A DNA stretch of 64,000 nucleotides. It comes from Zavarzinia marina (GTDB taxonomy: Bacteria > Pseudomonadota > Alphaproteobacteria > Zavarziniales > Zavarziniaceae). A program made the translations under genes and the position numbers. The stretch covers positions 124,001 through 188,000 of the forward strand of contig NZ_JAKGSB010000002.1 of the NCBI RefSeq assembly GCF_021568905.1, in the 5' to 3' direction. The notes beneath the pieces are model-generated. The model did not search any database, was not told the DNA's origin, and saw only the letters and a program-made list of their open reading frames with translations. This document shows positions 29,440 through 36,885 of the stretch, piece after piece (position 1 is the stretch's first letter; the number at the start of each line of letters is the position of its first letter).

Positions 29440-31542
29440 ATGATTTTTCCTGGTCGCCGCAGCTCGCTGATCGCTGCCGGCGCTTTTGCCGCGTGCAGCG
29501 TCCTGGCCGCAACGGCGGTCGGTGCCCCGGCGGGTTCGCCCGCCGACGGGGCACCCGCGCCCGACGTCGCCGCTTCGCCGGCGCCGGCCCCCGACAATAC
29601 CGCCCCCGACAATACCGCCGGCCCCGAAGTCGTGGCGCCCGATGTCGTGGCGCCCCCGGAAGCGGCCCCCATGCCCGACGGCGGGACGGCGGATCTGCCG
29701 GCCGACGACGACGCCGAGCCGGCGAAGCCCACCCCCACCGTCTCCGCGCAGGCCGAACTGCCGTCGGGGCCGACCTATCAGGCAGGCTTCAACGCCTATG
29801 AGCGCGGCGACTACGAGCGTGCCTACGAAATCTGGCTGCCGCTGGCGGAGGAAGGGGATTCCGACGCCCAGTTCGGTATCGGCGTGATGACCGACAACGG
29901 CCAGGGCGTGAACGAGAACGACGCCGAGGCGGCGAAATGGTATCGGCTGGCCGCCGAACGGGGCAATCCGGACGCCCAGTTCAACCTCGCCCTGCTCTAT
30001 GATTCCGGCAAGGGTGTCGCCGAGAACAAGGAAGAAGCCGCCCATTGGTACGCCAAGGCGGCGGCGCGCGGCCATATCGGCGCGCAATACAATCTGGCTC
30101 TCATGCTCGAAGCCGGCGACGGCATCCTGCGCGATCCCGCCGCGGCGGCGAAATGGTACCGCCAGGCGGCCGAACTCGGCCATATCAAGGCCCAGAACAA
30201 TCTGGGCGTGCTCTACGACAAGGGCATCGGCGTCGCGGAAGACAAGGCCGAGGCGGCGAAATGGTACCGCATGGCGGCCGAGAAGGGCTTCGCCCGGGCC
30301 CAGTTCAATCTGGGCGTCATGTACGATTTCGGCACCGGCGTGCCGCTGGACGATCTGGAAGCGGCCAAATGGTACCGCAAGGCCGCCGAACAGGGCGACG
30401 TCGAGGCGCAGTTCAACCTCGCCCTCATGCTGGACGCCGGCGAAGGCATGACCGCCAACAAGTCGGATGCCGCCTTCTGGTACCGCAAGGCCGCCGAACA
30501 GGGCAATGCCGCCGCCCAGAACAACCTGGGCGTCCTGCTCGATTCCGGTGACGGCGTGCCCCGTGCCCCGGACGAGGCGGCCTATTGGTACGAACAGGCG
30601 GCCCAGCGCGGCAACAGCAGCGCCATGCGCAACCTTGCCGCCCTGTTCCGCGACGGCCAGGGCGTGCCCCAGGATCTGGTCGAAGCCTACAAGTGGCTGA
30701 CCATCGCCATCGAGTCCATGGGCACCGGCCCCGACCGCGAGATGGCGCTGGAGGACCGCACCGAACTCGGCGAGCGCATGGAGCGCGGCGAGACCCGCGA
30801 GGCCCGCCGCCGCGCCGAGGCCTGGTTGCGTCAGACCGGCCCGGGCAGCCCGGAGCGGGCGGCGAGCACCGGCCCGGCCGAATCGCCGCCGCCGGAACGG
30901 CGCCGCACCGAACTGGATTCGACCGGCTCCGGCTTCTTCGTATCGGCCGGCGGCCTCGTCCTGACCAATCACCATGTCGTCGCCGCCTGCAGCGACCTGA
31001 AGCTGCGCCTGGGGCGGGAGGCGATCGGCGCGGCGACGATCATGGCCGCCGATCCCGCCAGCGATCTCGCCCTGCTGCGGACCGGCGCCCGGCCGCCGAC
31101 CCGGGCGGTCTTCCGCATGGGCAAGGAACCGCGCCCGGGCGACGACGTGGTCGCCGTCGGCTATCCGCTGCGCGGCCTGCTGGCGTCGGAGGCCAACGTC
31201 ACCACGGGCACGATCAGCGCCAATGCGGGGCTGCGCGACGATCCGAATTATTTCCAGGTCTCCGCCCCGGTTCAGCCCGGCAATTCGGGCGGCCCCCTGC
31301 TCGACCGCGCGGGCCATGTGGTCGGTGTCGTCTCGGCCAAGCTCGATGCGCTCGAAGTGGTCGATGCCTATGGCGACATTCCCCAGAACGTGAATTTCGC
31401 GGTCAAGGGCCGGGTCGCCGCCGCCTTCATGAACCGGGCCCAGCTCACCCCCGTCGCCGCCGACAGCACCACCGCCCTGTCCGCCGCCGACGTCGGCGAG
31501 ATCGCGCGGCGCTATACCGTGCTGGTGGAATGCTGGAAATGA
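29440..31542 (+). CDS. Sel1-repeat protein fused to an HtrA-like trypsin domain
   Basis: A 700-residue exported protein. A signal peptide (1-28) precedes a Pro/Ala/Asp-rich linker (30-105). About eight Sel1/TPR-like repeats of 36 residues follow (115-430; AKWYRxAAExG and AQxNLGxxYDxG are the recurring cores). The C-terminal domain (490-670) is a trypsin-type protease with His512 (NHHVV), Asp542 (SDLALL) and Ser616 (PGNSGGPL), all present. No PDZ domain is seen. It probably acts in the periplasm as a protease whose repeats bind partners. The MOSC gene overlaps its stop (ATGA). Confidence 0.88.
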   Translation: MIFPGRRSSLIAAGAFAACSVLAATAVGAPAGSPADGAPAPDVAASPAPAPDNTAPDNTAGPEVVAPDVVAPPEAAPMPDGGTADLPADDDAEPAKPTPTVSAQAELPSGPTYQAGFNAYERGDYERAYEIWLPLAEEGDSDAQFGIGVMTDNGQGVNENDAEAAKWYRLAAERGNPDAQFNLALLYDSGKGVAENKEEAAHWYAKAAARGHIGAQYNLALMLEAGDGILRDPAAAAKWYRQAAELGHIKAQNNLGVLYDKGIGVAEDKAEAAKWYRMAAEKGFARAQFNLGVMYDFGTGVPLDDLEAAKWYRKAAEQGDVEAQFNLALMLDAGEGMTANKSDAAFWYRKAAEQGNAAAQNNLGVLLDSGDGVPRAPDEAAYWYEQAAQRGNSSAMRNLAALFRDGQGVPQDLVEAYKWLTIAIESMGTGPDREMALEDRTELGERMERGETREARRRAEAWLRQTGPGSPERAASTGPAESPPPERRRTELDSTGSGFFVSAGGLVLTNHHVVAACSDLKLRLGREAIGAATIMAADPASDLALLRTGARPPTRAVFRMGKEPRPGDDVVAVGYPLRGLLASEANVTTGTISANAGLRDDPNYFQVSAPVQPGNSGGPLLDRAGHVVGVVSAKLDALEVVDAYGDIPQNVNFAVKGRVAAAFMNRAQLTPVAADSTTALSAADVGEIARRYTVLVECWK

Positions 31543-31991: not shown

Positions 31992-33005
31992 TCAGGGCCG
32001 GACCAGGGGGGCGTCGATGCCGTCGTCGTTCTCGTGCACGTCGAGTTCCGCCGAGGATTTGATCAGCGCCATGTTGAGGTTGAAGAAGCGCCCGGCCCGG
32101 GTCGTGAAGCTGCCGCCGACGATGTGGTTCAGGAAGCGCAGCATGTCGGCGCCGTCGAGCTTGCGCCCGCCTTCCGCGCCGAGCTTGGCGGACTGCCGCC
32201 CGGCGTAATCGACGTCGAGCCCGGCCGAGGAGAGCAGATCGGCATCGTTCAGAAGGCCGGCCATGCGCAGCAGGCGGCGATCCTCGGCCAGCGGCCTGAG
32301 TTCGGCGAAAGCCTCCGTCTCGACCGGCGGCGGCGCTTCGTAGAAGGCGGCGCCGTGAAGCGCCTTCATGTAGAGATTGGGGCCCGCCGGATCGGTCGCC
32401 AGCACGACGGCGCGGATCGCCGCGATATCGCCTTCCGCGACGCCCGCGTCCCGAAGGCAGGGCAGCGCCGCGTCGACCGCCAGGCTTTCCAGGCGAAAGC
32501 GGACCGCGCCGTTCATGGTGCCGTCGTGCTCGAAATCATGGATCAGGGCGGCGAGGCACAGAAGGCCGCGTTCCCGCGCGGTCAGGCGGATATGGGTCGC
32601 CACCTTGTCGTTCCGCTCGGCCAGGTAATGGGCGTTCAGGACGACTTCCAGGGTGTGATGGGCATTGTGATAGGGATTGACCGGCACCGGCGTGTCGCGG
32701 CTTTCGACCGCCGCCGAAAGGGCACGCGCGGCCAGGCGATAGGCATGGTCCGGCGGAAAGCCGTAGCCGGCCAGCATCCAGTCGGTCACCGGCGCCAGCT
32801 TCGGGACGGCCAGGTCTTCCAGCACCGTGAAGGCACGCACGATCGACTGCGCCGCGCGCCGGGCCGTGTGGCCCTCGATCAGGGTGAAGGGTTCGGCCGC
32901 GAGGTCGAGCCCGGCCCCGGCCGCCAGGGTCTCGAGCGCCGGCAGGGCCGCCCCGGCGGGAGCCCTGGTGGCTGGGGTGACCGGGGTCGACTCCGTCATC
33001 GCCAT
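31992..33005 (-). CDS. HD protein resembling class-I cyclic-nucleotide phosphodiesterase
   Basis: A 337-residue soluble protein. The metal motifs are NPYHNAHHTLEV (112-120) and LIHDFEHDGTMN (155-165), with NDADLL near 253. H-D-F-E-H-D-G-x2-N matches the PDEase class-I signature HDxxHxGxxN nearly position for position, and YHNxxH is the class-I upstream motif. So it is closer to the eukaryotic-type cAMP/cGMP phosphodiesterases than to generic HD hydrolases. Activity is inferred. I chose the ATG at 33005; 32999 is also possible. A perfect CRP-type site lies 137 bases upstream. Confidence 0.75.
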   Translation of the reverse strand: MAMTESTPVTPATRAPAGAALPALETLAAGAGLDLAAEPFTLIEGHTARRAAQSIVRAFTVLEDLAVPKLAPVTDWMLAGYGFPPDHAYRLAARALSAAVESRDTPVPVNPYHNAHHTLEVVLNAHYLAERNDKVATHIRLTARERGLLCLAALIHDFEHDGTMNGAVRFRLESLAVDAALPCLRDAGVAEGDIAAIRAVVLATDPAGPNLYMKALHGAAFYEAPPPVETEAFAELRPLAEDRRLLRMAGLLNDADLLSSAGLDVDYAGRQSAKLGAEGGRKLDGADMLRFLNHIVGGSFTTRAGRFFNLNMALIKSSAELDVHENDDGIDAPLVRP

Positions 33006-33423
33006 GCCGCCCCGTTCACGTAGCGGGCCCCTGCCGCGCATCCACGGCCGCGACGATTCTGAAGAAAGCGATGCATGGAGGAAGGCCGACCCGACGAGAG
33101 ACAAGATGTCCTATTCCGACCGCCATCGGGCCATTTCCGTCTGTGACCAACATCACACCTGATCGATTTCGCGCGCCGGAGCGACTTCGGGCCCCGGAGC
33201 GAATTTGGGCCAATGGCTGCCATGCGGTGGCGGGGCCGGGACACGGGGCAAGCCTAGCGCAATTCCCCCGCCCCGCAACAGCACCGGATATACCGGAATC
33301 GGACGAGAATTGCGGTCGGGGTCTTGGATGCCGGGACGGGTTTGAGCTAATCACAGAAGGGGGGACCGGCCGCGCGCGTGCCGGGTGTTCCCCCGCGCCC
33401 CCGCGGCCCAGGACAGGAAGACC
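33006..33423. other. divergent promoter region, PDE-like gene and LplT-Aas fusion
   Basis: The 418-base gap holds no convincing gene. Its main feature is the CRP-type site at 33142-33157. The 3' part is GC-rich and ends in the AGGAAG ribosome site of the fusion gene. Confidence 0.6.
33142..33157. promoter_or_regulatory. perfect CRP/FNR-family site TGTGA-N6-TCACA
   Basis: TGTGACCAACATCACA matches the CRP consensus half-sites exactly. It lies 137 bases upstream of the phosphodiesterase-like gene and 267 bases upstream of the LplT-Aas fusion. Confidence 0.65.
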
Positions 33424-36400
33424 ATGACCCGACAACCCGAGGCGGCCGCCGAAGCCGACCCGAAACCGGCCGCAACGGCGCCGGCGCGACGCAGCCCCAT
33501 CCCCCGCATCTTCATCGCCCTCTTCGCCTTCTGCGTGACGACGGCGGCGATCTTCGTCTCCCTGCTGCTGGCCGGGGGCGAGGCCCGGGGCTTCGGCGCG
33601 CGCGGCTTCCTGGCGGCCGCCCTGCTTCTGGTGCCCGCCGTCGTGCTGCCGCGGCTTTCGGGCGGTATCGCCACGCGGGGCCGGGGCCAGCCCATGATCA
33701 CCTGGTCCATGGCGGTCGCGCTGCTGGCGGCGGTGGTCGCGGCGGGTGCCATTCTGGCGCGGGCGGAATGGGCGCTGTGGCTTGCGCTGGCGCTCTGCGG
33801 CGTGGTCGCGGCGCTGCTCGGCCCGCTGGCGCTGTCCGCCCTGCACCGCCTGCTGCCGGAAGCGGGCCGCGCGGCCGGTGTCGCCGCCGCCCTGGCCGCC
33901 GTGTTCCTGGGGGCTGCCGGCGGTGTCGGCCTGACCCATGGCGTGGCCGCCCTGCCCGCGGGCGGCGCGCCCCTGATGGCGGCGCTGCTGATCGTGGTCG
34001 CGACCACCGGCTGGTGGCTGACCCGGCACCTCGCCGGCGGGCGCCTCGGCACCCTGCCGCCGGGCGACGAGGTCGATCTCGCGGCGCTCGGCACCGGCGG
34101 CGTCACCCGCACCGTCGAGCACATGCGCCGGCAGGACGTGCCCTTCACCGCGGCCTTCGCCATCGCCTGGGTCACCGCCGGGCTGTTCTTCCTGCTCGCC
34201 TTCCTGCCGGCCGCCGGCCGCGACCTGCTCGGCGGCGGCGCGCTCGTCCAATATGCCCTGCTCGGCGTGCTCGGCCTCGGCGTGGCGCTGGGGGCGCGCC
34301 TCGCGTTGCGCCTCTCGCACGGCGCGGCGAGCGCGGCCTGGGCGCCGCTGGCGGCCCTGGTCGCGATCTTCGCCGCCTTCGATCTCCAGGCGGTCGCCGC
34401 CGCCCTGGCCGCCCAGGCGCCGGCCGGTGCCGACCCCCGCCCCCTCCTCGCCCTATTGGCCGACGAAGGCGCGATCCGCTTCGCCATCGACGTGCTCTTC
34501 TTCGGCGCCGCCGCCGGCCTCTGGTCGACGCCCCTGACGGTCCTGATCGGCGACCGCACGGACGAGCGCGCGACGGCCCACCACTATGCCATCGCCGGCC
34601 TGCTGGTCGGCCTGTTCGGACTGGTGGCCCTGCTGGCCGGGCTCGGCCTGTCGAAGGCCGGGCTCGGGTTGCCGGGGCTCTTCTTCCTCTTCGCGCTGGC
34701 GAGCGTGGTCCTGCTGGTGCCGGCCATCCGGCTCTGGCCCGACCGCCTGTTCAAGGCCGCGACGGCGCGCCTGCTGCGCCTGCTGTTCCGGGTCGAGGTC
34801 AAGGGGGCGGAGAACATCGCCCGCGCCGGCGCGCGGGTGGTGGTGGTCGCCAATCACGTCTCCCACCTCGATGCGCCGCTGCTCGCCGCCTTCCTGCCCG
34901 ATGCCACGCGCTTCGCCGCCACGGAACGGGTCGCCCAATCCCTGAGCGCGCGACTGCTGTCCAAGCTGATCCATCTGACCCCGGTCGACACCTCGCGCCC
35001 GGTCGCGGTGAAGGCGCTGATCCGCGGCGTCGAGGACGGCACGCCCCTGGTCATCTTCCCCGAAGGCCGGCCCACGGTGACCGGCGGCCTGATGAAGGTC
35101 TACGAAGGCCCCGGCATGGTCGCCGATAGGGCGCATGCCATGGTCCTGCCGGTGCGCATCGAGGGGCCGCAATATTCGCTGTTCTCGCGCCTCGGCGGCA
35201 AGCTGCACCGGCGCCTGTTCCCCAAGGTGACGATCCACGTCCAGGAGCCGGAACGCTTCGAGATCCCGGCCCATGTCCACGGCCGCCTGCGCCGCCAGGT
35301 CGCCGGCAACAAGCTCTACGACATCATGGTCGAGATGATGTTCCACTCGGGCGATCTCGACACCAACCTGTGGCAGGCCCTGCTCGCCGCGCGCACCAAC
35401 CACGGCGGCGCCACCCAGGTGGTCGAGGATCAGGACCGCAAGCCCTTCAGCTACAACCGCCTGATCATGGCTTCCCTGGTGCTGGGCAAGGCGCTGTCGC
35501 GAAAGACCGCCGAGGGGGAGATCTGCGGCGTCCTCCTGCCCAATACCGCCGGTGTCGCGGTCACCTTCTTCGCCCTGCTCGCCTTCGGGCGGGTGCCCGC
35601 CATGCTGAACTTCTCCGCCGGACCGTCGACCATGGCGTCGGCCTGCCAGACGGCCAGGCTGAAGACCGTGCTGACCTCGCGCCGCTTCGTCGCCATGGCC
35701 AAGCTGTCGGAAGCGATCAAGGCGATCGAGGCCGTCGCGGACGTCGTCTATCTCGAGGACATCCGCGAGAGCCTCGGCCTCGGCGACAAGCTGTGGGGCG
35801 TGGCCGCGTCGCGCTTCACCGGCTTCTTCCACGGCGAGGCCGTGGCGCCGGCGAACAGTCCCGCCGTCGTCCTCTTCACCTCGGGCAGCGAGGGCCTGCC
35901 CAAGGGCGTGGTGCTGAGCCACCGCAACATGAACGCCAACCAGCTCCAGATCGCCTCGATCGTCGACATCACCAGCCAGGACAAGGTGTTGAATCCGCTG
36001 CCGGTGTTCCATTCCTTCGGCCTGCTCGGCGGCCTGGTGCTGCCCATCCTCCAGGGCGTGAAGACCTTCCTCTATCCCTCGCCGCTGCATTACCGGGCGA
36101 TTCCGGAACTGGTCTACGAGATCGGCGCGACCATGATGTTCGGCACCGACACCTTCCTGAACGGCTATGCCCGCGCCGCCCACCCCTACGACTTCTATTC
36201 GACCCGCTACATCTTCGCGGGCGCCGAGCGGGTGAAGGACGAGACGCGGCGGACCTATGGCGAAAAATTCGGCGTCCGCATCCTGGAAGGTTACGGCACC
36301 ACCGAATGCTCGCCGGTGGTCGCGGTGAATACGGCGATGCAGTTCAAGCCCGGGTCCGTCGGCCGCCTGCTGCCGGCGATCCGCTCGCGCCTGGAGCCTG

Positions 36401-36885
36401 TCGAGGGCATCGAGCGCGGCGGGCGCCTGGTGGTCAGCGGGCCGAACGTCATGCTCGGCTATTTCAGGGCGGAGAAGCCCGGCGTGCTGGAGCCCTGCGG
36501 GGACGGCTGGTACGACACCGGCGATATCGTCGACATCGACGATCTCGGCTTCGTCACCATCCTGGGCCGGGCCAAGCGCTTCGCCAAGGTCGCGGGCGAG
36601 ATGGTCAGCCTGGCCGCCGTGGAACACGAGGCGTCCGTGCTGTGGCCGGATTTCGCCCATGCCGTCGTGAACCTGCCGGATCCCGCCAAGGGCGAGCGCC
36701 TGGCCATGATGACCACCTGCCCCGAGGCCGACCGCAGTATCCTGTCGCGTCACCTGCACGAGCACGGGCTGACCGAGCTCATGCTGCCGAAGACGATCGT
36801 TCAGGTCGAGGAACTGCCCCTGCTCGGCTCCGGCAAGACCGACTATCAGGCGGTCAAGTCCGCCTTCCTGAAGAAGGCGGAATGA
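33424..36885 (+). CDS. LplT-Aas-type fusion: MFS transporter + acyltransferase + acyl-ACP synthetase
   Basis: A 1153-residue three-part protein. Residues about 20-440 form 10-12 transmembrane helices of the MFS type. A PlsC acyltransferase domain follows (about 450-640) with NHVSHLD at 477-483 (HX4D) and FPEGRPTVTG. The rest is an AMP-binding adenylase (about 660-1150) with FTSGSEGLPKGVV around 820 and YGTTECSPVV, ending in the catalytic-lysine region LLGSGKTDYQ. E. coli splits these jobs between LplT (lysophospholipid flippase) and Aas (2-acyl-GPE acyltransferase/acyl-ACP synthetase). It should re-import and re-acylate lysophospholipids. AGGAAG supports the ATG at 33424. Confidence 0.9.
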   Translation: MTRQPEAAAEADPKPAATAPARRSPIPRIFIALFAFCVTTAAIFVSLLLAGGEARGFGARGFLAAALLLVPAVVLPRLSGGIATRGRGQPMITWSMAVALLAAVVAAGAILARAEWALWLALALCGVVAALLGPLALSALHRLLPEAGRAAGVAAALAAVFLGAAGGVGLTHGVAALPAGGAPLMAALLIVVATTGWWLTRHLAGGRLGTLPPGDEVDLAALGTGGVTRTVEHMRRQDVPFTAAFAIAWVTAGLFFLLAFLPAAGRDLLGGGALVQYALLGVLGLGVALGARLALRLSHGAASAAWAPLAALVAIFAAFDLQAVAAALAAQAPAGADPRPLLALLADEGAIRFAIDVLFFGAAAGLWSTPLTVLIGDRTDERATAHHYAIAGLLVGLFGLVALLAGLGLSKAGLGLPGLFFLFALASVVLLVPAIRLWPDRLFKAATARLLRLLFRVEVKGAENIARAGARVVVVANHVSHLDAPLLAAFLPDATRFAATERVAQSLSARLLSKLIHLTPVDTSRPVAVKALIRGVEDGTPLVIFPEGRPTVTGGLMKVYEGPGMVADRAHAMVLPVRIEGPQYSLFSRLGGKLHRRLFPKVTIHVQEPERFEIPAHVHGRLRRQVAGNKLYDIMVEMMFHSGDLDTNLWQALLAARTNHGGATQVVEDQDRKPFSYNRLIMASLVLGKALSRKTAEGEICGVLLPNTAGVAVTFFALLAFGRVPAMLNFSAGPSTMASACQTARLKTVLTSRRFVAMAKLSEAIKAIEAVADVVYLEDIRESLGLGDKLWGVAASRFTGFFHGEAVAPANSPAVVLFTSGSEGLPKGVVLSHRNMNANQLQIASIVDITSQDKVLNPLPVFHSFGLLGGLVLPILQGVKTFLYPSPLHYRAIPELVYEIGATMMFGTDTFLNGYARAAHPYDFYSTRYIFAGAERVKDETRRTYGEKFGVRILEGYGTTECSPVVAVNTAMQFKPGSVGRLLPAIRSRLEPVEGIERGGRLVVSGPNVMLGYFRAEKPGVLEPCGDGWYDTGDIVDIDDLGFVTILGRAKRFAKVAGEMVSLAAVEHEASVLWPDFAHAVVNLPDPAKGERLAMMTTCPEADRSILSRHLHEHGLTELMLPKTIVQVEELPLLGSGKTDYQAVKSAFLKKAE

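Follow-up and report, generated by a model that had tools for sequence, protein, structure and literature searches.

A class I-like cyclic nucleotide phosphodiesterase gene in Zavarziniaceae with a conserved CRP-type site upstream

The stretch of Zavarzinia marina DNA analysed here (64,000 nucleotides, termed the window; G000:C10:124001-188000) carries on its minus strand a gene for a class I-like cyclic nucleotide phosphodiesterase (PDE) (31992..33005), an assignment drawn from Pfam, motifs, relatives and a predicted fold. A CRP-type palindrome (33142..33157, no strand) separates this gene from a divergent LplT-Aas-like fusion gene on the plus strand (33424..36885). The first-pass annotation had described an HD protein with the motifs YHNAHH and HDFEHDGTMN and an exact TGTGA-N6-TCACA between its gene and the fusion. 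Both motifs and the site are present, and the observation as a whole proved even stronger than claimed. The open reading frame (ORF) originally called, 31992-33104 (-), opens with TTG at 33104. An ATG at 33005 or 32999 is the likely start and gives a better fit to the N-termini of relatives. The resulting protein has ~338 residues; the enzyme is a stand-alone protein of about 314-338 amino acids.

A Pfam scan of the PDE protein yields PDEase_I (PF00233) at 27.4 bits, above the gathering cut-off of 24.8, and the HD family (PF01966) at 13.9 bits, below its cut-off. The proposed class I-like identity is thus supported, with PDEase_I outscoring HD by 13 bits and the predicted fold in agreement. 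These two families are the only ones returned by Pfam at E values up to 10, and the metallophosphoesterase domain of class III (CpdA-type) enzymes is absent; an NCBIfam scan of the protein produced no match. Each of the 16 sequences in the family alignment is recognised by PDEase_I at E values up to 0.1. When the family profile was compared with the PDB, class I PDEs were found with E values down to 2e-9. The best rows align across the HD motifs, E174, T205-D206 and D257, as far as E279.

The structure was predicted with AlphaFold2 by using four Zavarzinia rows. In a Foldseek search with this model, class I PDEs occupy all of the top 26 rows, and YpgQ first appears at row 27, with E 0.037 against 0.00036 for class I. 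In the VIA alignments to solved structures, each of the 50 best listed matches is a class I PDE (Z 17.2-18.3, root-mean-square deviation 4.0-5.0), over 254-275 aligned residues at 14-18% identity. Ten residues are invariant in the 16 family members: Y113, H114, H118, H157, D158, H161, N166, E174, T205 and D257. In PDE4B2B, the His/His/Asp/Asp metal ligands are H238, H274, D275 and D392 (PMC13095499). The metal-ligand positions of the window protein (H118, H157, D158 and D257), kept throughout the family, are profile-aligned to class I PDE chains in the PDB.

G000, which holds the window, and G001-G005 were taken to be Zavarzinia, whereas G006 was taken to represent another genus of Zavarziniaceae. 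In a set of 116 genomes, close orthologues of the PDE occur in G001-G006 (61-78% identity to the window protein) and weaker ones in four more. Of 386 genomes sampled from the class, 19 have a match to the family profile, and PDEase_I reaches its cut-off in only one of 397 sampled from the phylum, namely G000. A pattern search for relatives in viral contigs returned 85 matches, none of which is a relative. Class II PDEs were found in none of the seven Zavarziniaceae genomes. A query with E. coli CpdA matched in G000 only, weakly and at 26% identity, and CpdA was rejected as an alternative cAMP (cyclic AMP)-removing enzyme on account of this single weak match in seven genomes.

Two other kinds of PDE-like protein were seen during these searches. 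On contig G106:C29 (L010/L039, about 18.7-20.7 kb), one ORF of 1109 amino acids contains two tandem PDE-like copies; the second reads CHWHHTGKGN where the first reads HDWHHDGGVN, and may be dead or regulatory. A second, shorter HD family with YHNIEH and AHDIGY is represented by L178, L179 and L181 (G661, G352 and G550, of one genus, f170 g262). Its sub-threshold PDEase_I matches occur in several relatives with large genomes.

The palindrome, TGTGACCAACATCACA, fits TGTGAN6TCACA exactly, which is the consensus given for E. coli CRP (PMC4222275). When a single mismatch is tolerated, it is still the sole match in the window, where 0.56 are expected. Within the window alone the site is unremarkable, because 47 of 100 shuffled windows held at least one such match. 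The G000 assembly (3.95 Mb) contains two exact sites, of which the PDE site is the only non-coding one; the other (C2:26636) was dropped as regulatory, as it lies within a coding gene conserved in G002. Sites with at most one mismatch number 31 in the assembly, versus 2 for a reversed control pattern. An exact site stands upstream of the PDE orthologue in all seven Zavarziniaceae genomes, even though in G006 it is located in a neighbouring reading frame. Its spacer letters vary and its flanks are otherwise poorly conserved. By a first-order Markov model, the chance of an exact site per 300 bp per genome is 0.00004-0.00042. Genome-wide rarity, recurrence in seven of seven genomes and the excess over the reversed control place the site beyond chance. 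Its conservation before the PDE orthologues indicates selection on the site and assigns it to the PDE gene.

The site centre lies 144 bp from the PDE ATG in the window, and 139-193 nucleotides from the start of the protein match across the seven orthologues. In six of the seven orthologues a GTCCG/GTCGG-type stretch also lies downstream of the site, at a distance of 20-21 nucleotides. In the window, GTCGGAATA (33112..33120, minus strand) is part of this GTCCG(T/A)-type stretch, which may be a -10 region. If so, the site would be placed near -41 to -46, a class-II-like CRP position.

The G000 genome was also examined for a CRP homologue. Of its 13 matches to the cNMP_binding domain (for cyclic nucleoside monophosphates, cNMPs), L016 (G000:C12:310298-311011) combines cNMP_binding with HTH_Crp_2, both above cut-off, and aligns to E. 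coli CRP chains with a score of about 75 bits (E about 1e-19). DNA contacts of CRP are made by the RE..R residues of the recognition helix. The L016 segment TTRETVARV aligns to CSRETVGRI in the E. coli helix and is identical in all seven genomes, and orthologues of L016 in G001-G006 show 71-88% identity. The genome thus has a CRP homologue with the recognition-helix residues of the E. coli protein. In the cAMP pocket of E. coli CRP, the relevant residues are E72, R82, S83, T127 and S128, the last two of which contact adenine; the equivalents of E72, R82 and S83 are kept in L016. In each of the seven genomes a site precedes the crp gene itself; it departs from the consensus at no more than one position (exact in G004) and is located at -81/-82 in six genomes and at -59 in G006.

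Class III cyclase matches occur in all seven genomes, five of them in G000. One of these five is a CHASE2-cyclase with Lys in IDKFIGD and Thr in NYTVTGD, residues that by the rules for class IIIb cyclases fit ATP as substrate. The two-gene operon that encodes it has an upstream site with one mismatch in G000, G001 and G004 and with two mismatches in G003 and G005. This amounts to five of five genomes examined, with G002 left out and the G006 contig lacking the region. TCCTAT follows the site in four of these five genomes.

G000 has 29 sites with one mismatch: 16 are intergenic, 12 lie inside predicted ORFs and the last is the crp site. The other 28 were assigned with a crude GC-frame gene caller, which counts the cyclase-operon site among the 12 owing to over-extended ORF starts at that locus. 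Exact sites elsewhere in G001-G006 were also examined, leaving aside those at the PDE and, among the eleven of G004, five sites of which one is the crp site. A gene for an OmpA/Gly-zipper lipoprotein (L199, G000:C16:30 kb) has an exact site in G001, G002 and G004, and an alpha-2-macroglobulin-like gene (L189, G000:C10:210 kb) has one in G001, G003 and G005; both have a one-mismatch site in G000. Conservation of the sites at these two envelope genes hints at a cell-envelope regulon.

Sequence comparison establishes a fold-level relationship to class I PDEs, conserved metal-ligand positions, a conserved site at the PDE gene and a homologue of CRP; it also shows that sites close to the consensus precede crp and the CHASE2-cyclase operon. 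We infer that the enzyme is catalytically active, that it acts on cAMP, that CRP binds the site, and that the effect is activation rather than repression. The gene probably encodes a cytosolic, metal-dependent class I-like PDE that is activated by CRP with bound cNMP and that lowers the messenger, giving negative feedback in this soil and water bacterium. In such a circuit, class III cyclases would make a cyclic nucleotide, most likely cAMP. The CRP homologue L016, loaded with this nucleotide, is predicted to bind TGTGAN6TCACA beside the PDE promoter and would switch the gene on. The induced enzyme would remove the messenger, so that a rise of the messenger triggers its own destruction. This negative feedback may be counterbalanced by a positive one that acts on crp and the cyclase. 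The conserved sites at PDE, crp and the cyclase operon make the cAMP feedback loop of the first-pass annotation plausible, but its suggested tie to phospholipid repair gained no support.

Several observations weigh against this interpretation. The PDEase_I match spans only positions 1-51 of the 238 in the model. Confidence in the predicted structure is modest, with a mean predicted local distance difference test score (pLDDT) of 63, a predicted template modelling score (pTM) of 0.71 and residues 262-338 under 50. The class I signature is published in PMC1431542 with LIVMFY as its last position. The segment HDFEHDGTMNGA agrees with every specified position of this signature except that last one, where it has Ala168; the other six Zavarziniaceae have A, P, K or S. 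Class I PDEs possess an invariant purine-binding glutamine. A glutamine column conserved through the 16 family members, corresponding to this purine clamp, was sought after D257 and not found. The only column there with at least five Gln residues is Q272 (9 of 16), upstream of E279; the PDB profile alignments end short of the purine-clamp region. Because the last signature position differs and a conserved purine-clamp Gln was not found among the 16 members, the protein is classed as a divergent bacterial variant of the class I PDE superfamily, not a standard member.

Other points concern the regulation. The equivalents of T127 and S128 in L016 are Ala and Asp, and because of this its ligand, though likely cAMP, may perhaps be another. 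The two-mismatch sites of the cyclase operon are weak, and some of the same loci contain other two-mismatch sites. None of ten distant family members has a site with up to two mismatches within 400 bp upstream. CRP wiring of the PDE outside Zavarziniaceae was rejected for this reason, and the proposed wiring is lineage-specific.

A more specific version of the feedback interpretation is put forward only tentatively. The PDE could be an Alphaproteobacteria-native class I branch with a different base pocket, without the purine-clamp Gln and with a short C-terminal loop. It would then switch off the signal in a closed circuit whose regulator, cyclase and PDE all have a CRP box, with a PDE fold of the animal type built into a bacterial cAMP feedback loop.

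Alternatively, a class I fold could act on another substrate, cleaving a different (cyclic) nucleotide or phosphodiester, with CRP controlling the PDE as a metabolic gene. This is unlikely, although Ala168 at the signature's end, the purine-clamp Gln that was not found and the short stretch from E279 to F292 all favour it. There is also a precedent in Sinorhizobium meliloti, where a class III PDE that had been predicted from its locus to use 3',5'-cAMP acts on 2',3'-cNMPs (PMC4222275). However, Y113, H114, H118, H157, D158, E174, T205 and D257 are kept in the whole family, six of the seven genomes yielded no other class of cNMP PDE in the class II and CpdA searches, and the proposed wiring of the gene to CRP also speaks against it.

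The box might be used by a different regulator, either another of the 13 proteins with a cNMP_binding domain or an FNR-type protein. Three such proteins of G000 do adjoin class III cyclase genes (C13:66.3-68.7 kb, C15:60.5-62.5 kb and C9:1201-1204 kb), and in G004 an exact CRP-type site precedes the operon of the C13 type, a second Crp-like/cyclase operon. We consider this quite improbable, since L016 alone among the 13 has R-E-T-V-x-R (as judged by eye, two are FNR-like, with ETVSR, and the rest differ), and a conserved site precedes the L016 gene.

It is more doubtful still that the box serves the divergent fusion gene and phospholipid repair, or both genes. The fusion was found where the first-pass annotation had placed an LplT-Aas gene and matches PRK06814 at 1171 bits, below the model cut-off of 1349; it is a neighbour of the PDE gene and at most a candidate part of the circuit. 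It lies divergently beside the PDE in G001, G003, G004 and G005, which is four of four other genomes of the genus with long enough contigs (that of G002 is too short to show it). However, about 275 bp separate the site from the start of Aas, the conserved GTCCG stretch is on the PDE side, and G006 keeps an exact site before its PDE on a 3.3-kb contig without Aas. The site thus accompanies the PDE even where Aas is not beside it, and a tie to phospholipid repair was rejected for want of support.

Finally, a generic HD-domain phosphohydrolase, such as a YpgQ-like or HD-GYP-like enzyme with superficial class I likeness, would account for the sub-threshold PF01966 match and the YpgQ chains lower in the Foldseek list, but was rejected as highly improbable on the Pfam and Foldseek scores, with the long structural alignments to class I PDEs also against it.

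Beyond the PDE gene, the window encodes at 29440-31542 (+) a 700-amino-acid fusion of eight Sel1 repeats and a trypsin-like protease domain. One small gene separates this fusion gene from the PDE gene.

Class I PDEs are drug targets of human medicine; the class includes the human PDEs, kinetoplastid PDEB1 and choanoflagellate Rh-PDE. The window PDE resembles them in fold over about 260 residues and has in common with them the His/His/Asp/Asp ligands, YHN..H, HD..H.G..N and the downstream E, TD and AD. It differs in its low identity of 14-18%, the differing signature end, the lack of an identified purine Gln, its stand-alone architecture and its bacterial origin. PMC1431542 presents class I as eukaryotic and class III as the prokaryotic class of PDE. 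Among the papers listed by a search of the open-licence PMC literature, none deals with CRP control of a class I PDE in bacteria, or with this branch.

On the regulatory side, the E. coli CRP site TGTGAN6TCACA and the helix RETVxR recur in the Zavarzinia site and in L016, whose overall similarity to CRP is limited and which differs at T127/S128. The Crp-like regulator Clr of S. meliloti uses TGTTN8AACA (PMC4222275), unlike the Zavarzinia site. CHASE2 cyclases of S. meliloti feed a cAMP-dependent pathway (PMC13001267), and the pairing of a CHASE2 cyclase with a Crp-like regulator is similar in Zavarzinia. In contrast to the CRP-controlled class I-like PDE proposed here, the S. meliloti enzyme SpdA is a class III enzyme for 2',3'-cNMPs whose expression is independent of clr (PMC4222275).

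If the proposed circuit is correct, it accounts for messenger removal in genomes that have several class III cyclases and, in most cases, no clear CpdA or class II PDE. The nearest parallel in logic is from Pseudomonas aeruginosa, whose CpdA is a class III metallophosphoesterase of a fold unrelated to that of the window PDE. E. coli CpdA is a class III PDE too (PMC4222275). In P. aeruginosa, the cAMP-CRP-type regulator Vfr raises expression of the cAMP PDE CpdA (PMC3535393), which is the same feedback logic as that proposed for Zavarzinia. The logic is thus already known; the enzyme branch and its CRP wiring are new. Zavarziniaceae would possess a small bacterial sister branch of the human class I PDEs, with intact metal ligands and CRP wiring, and would have reached the Vfr-CpdA feedback logic with an unrelated enzyme.

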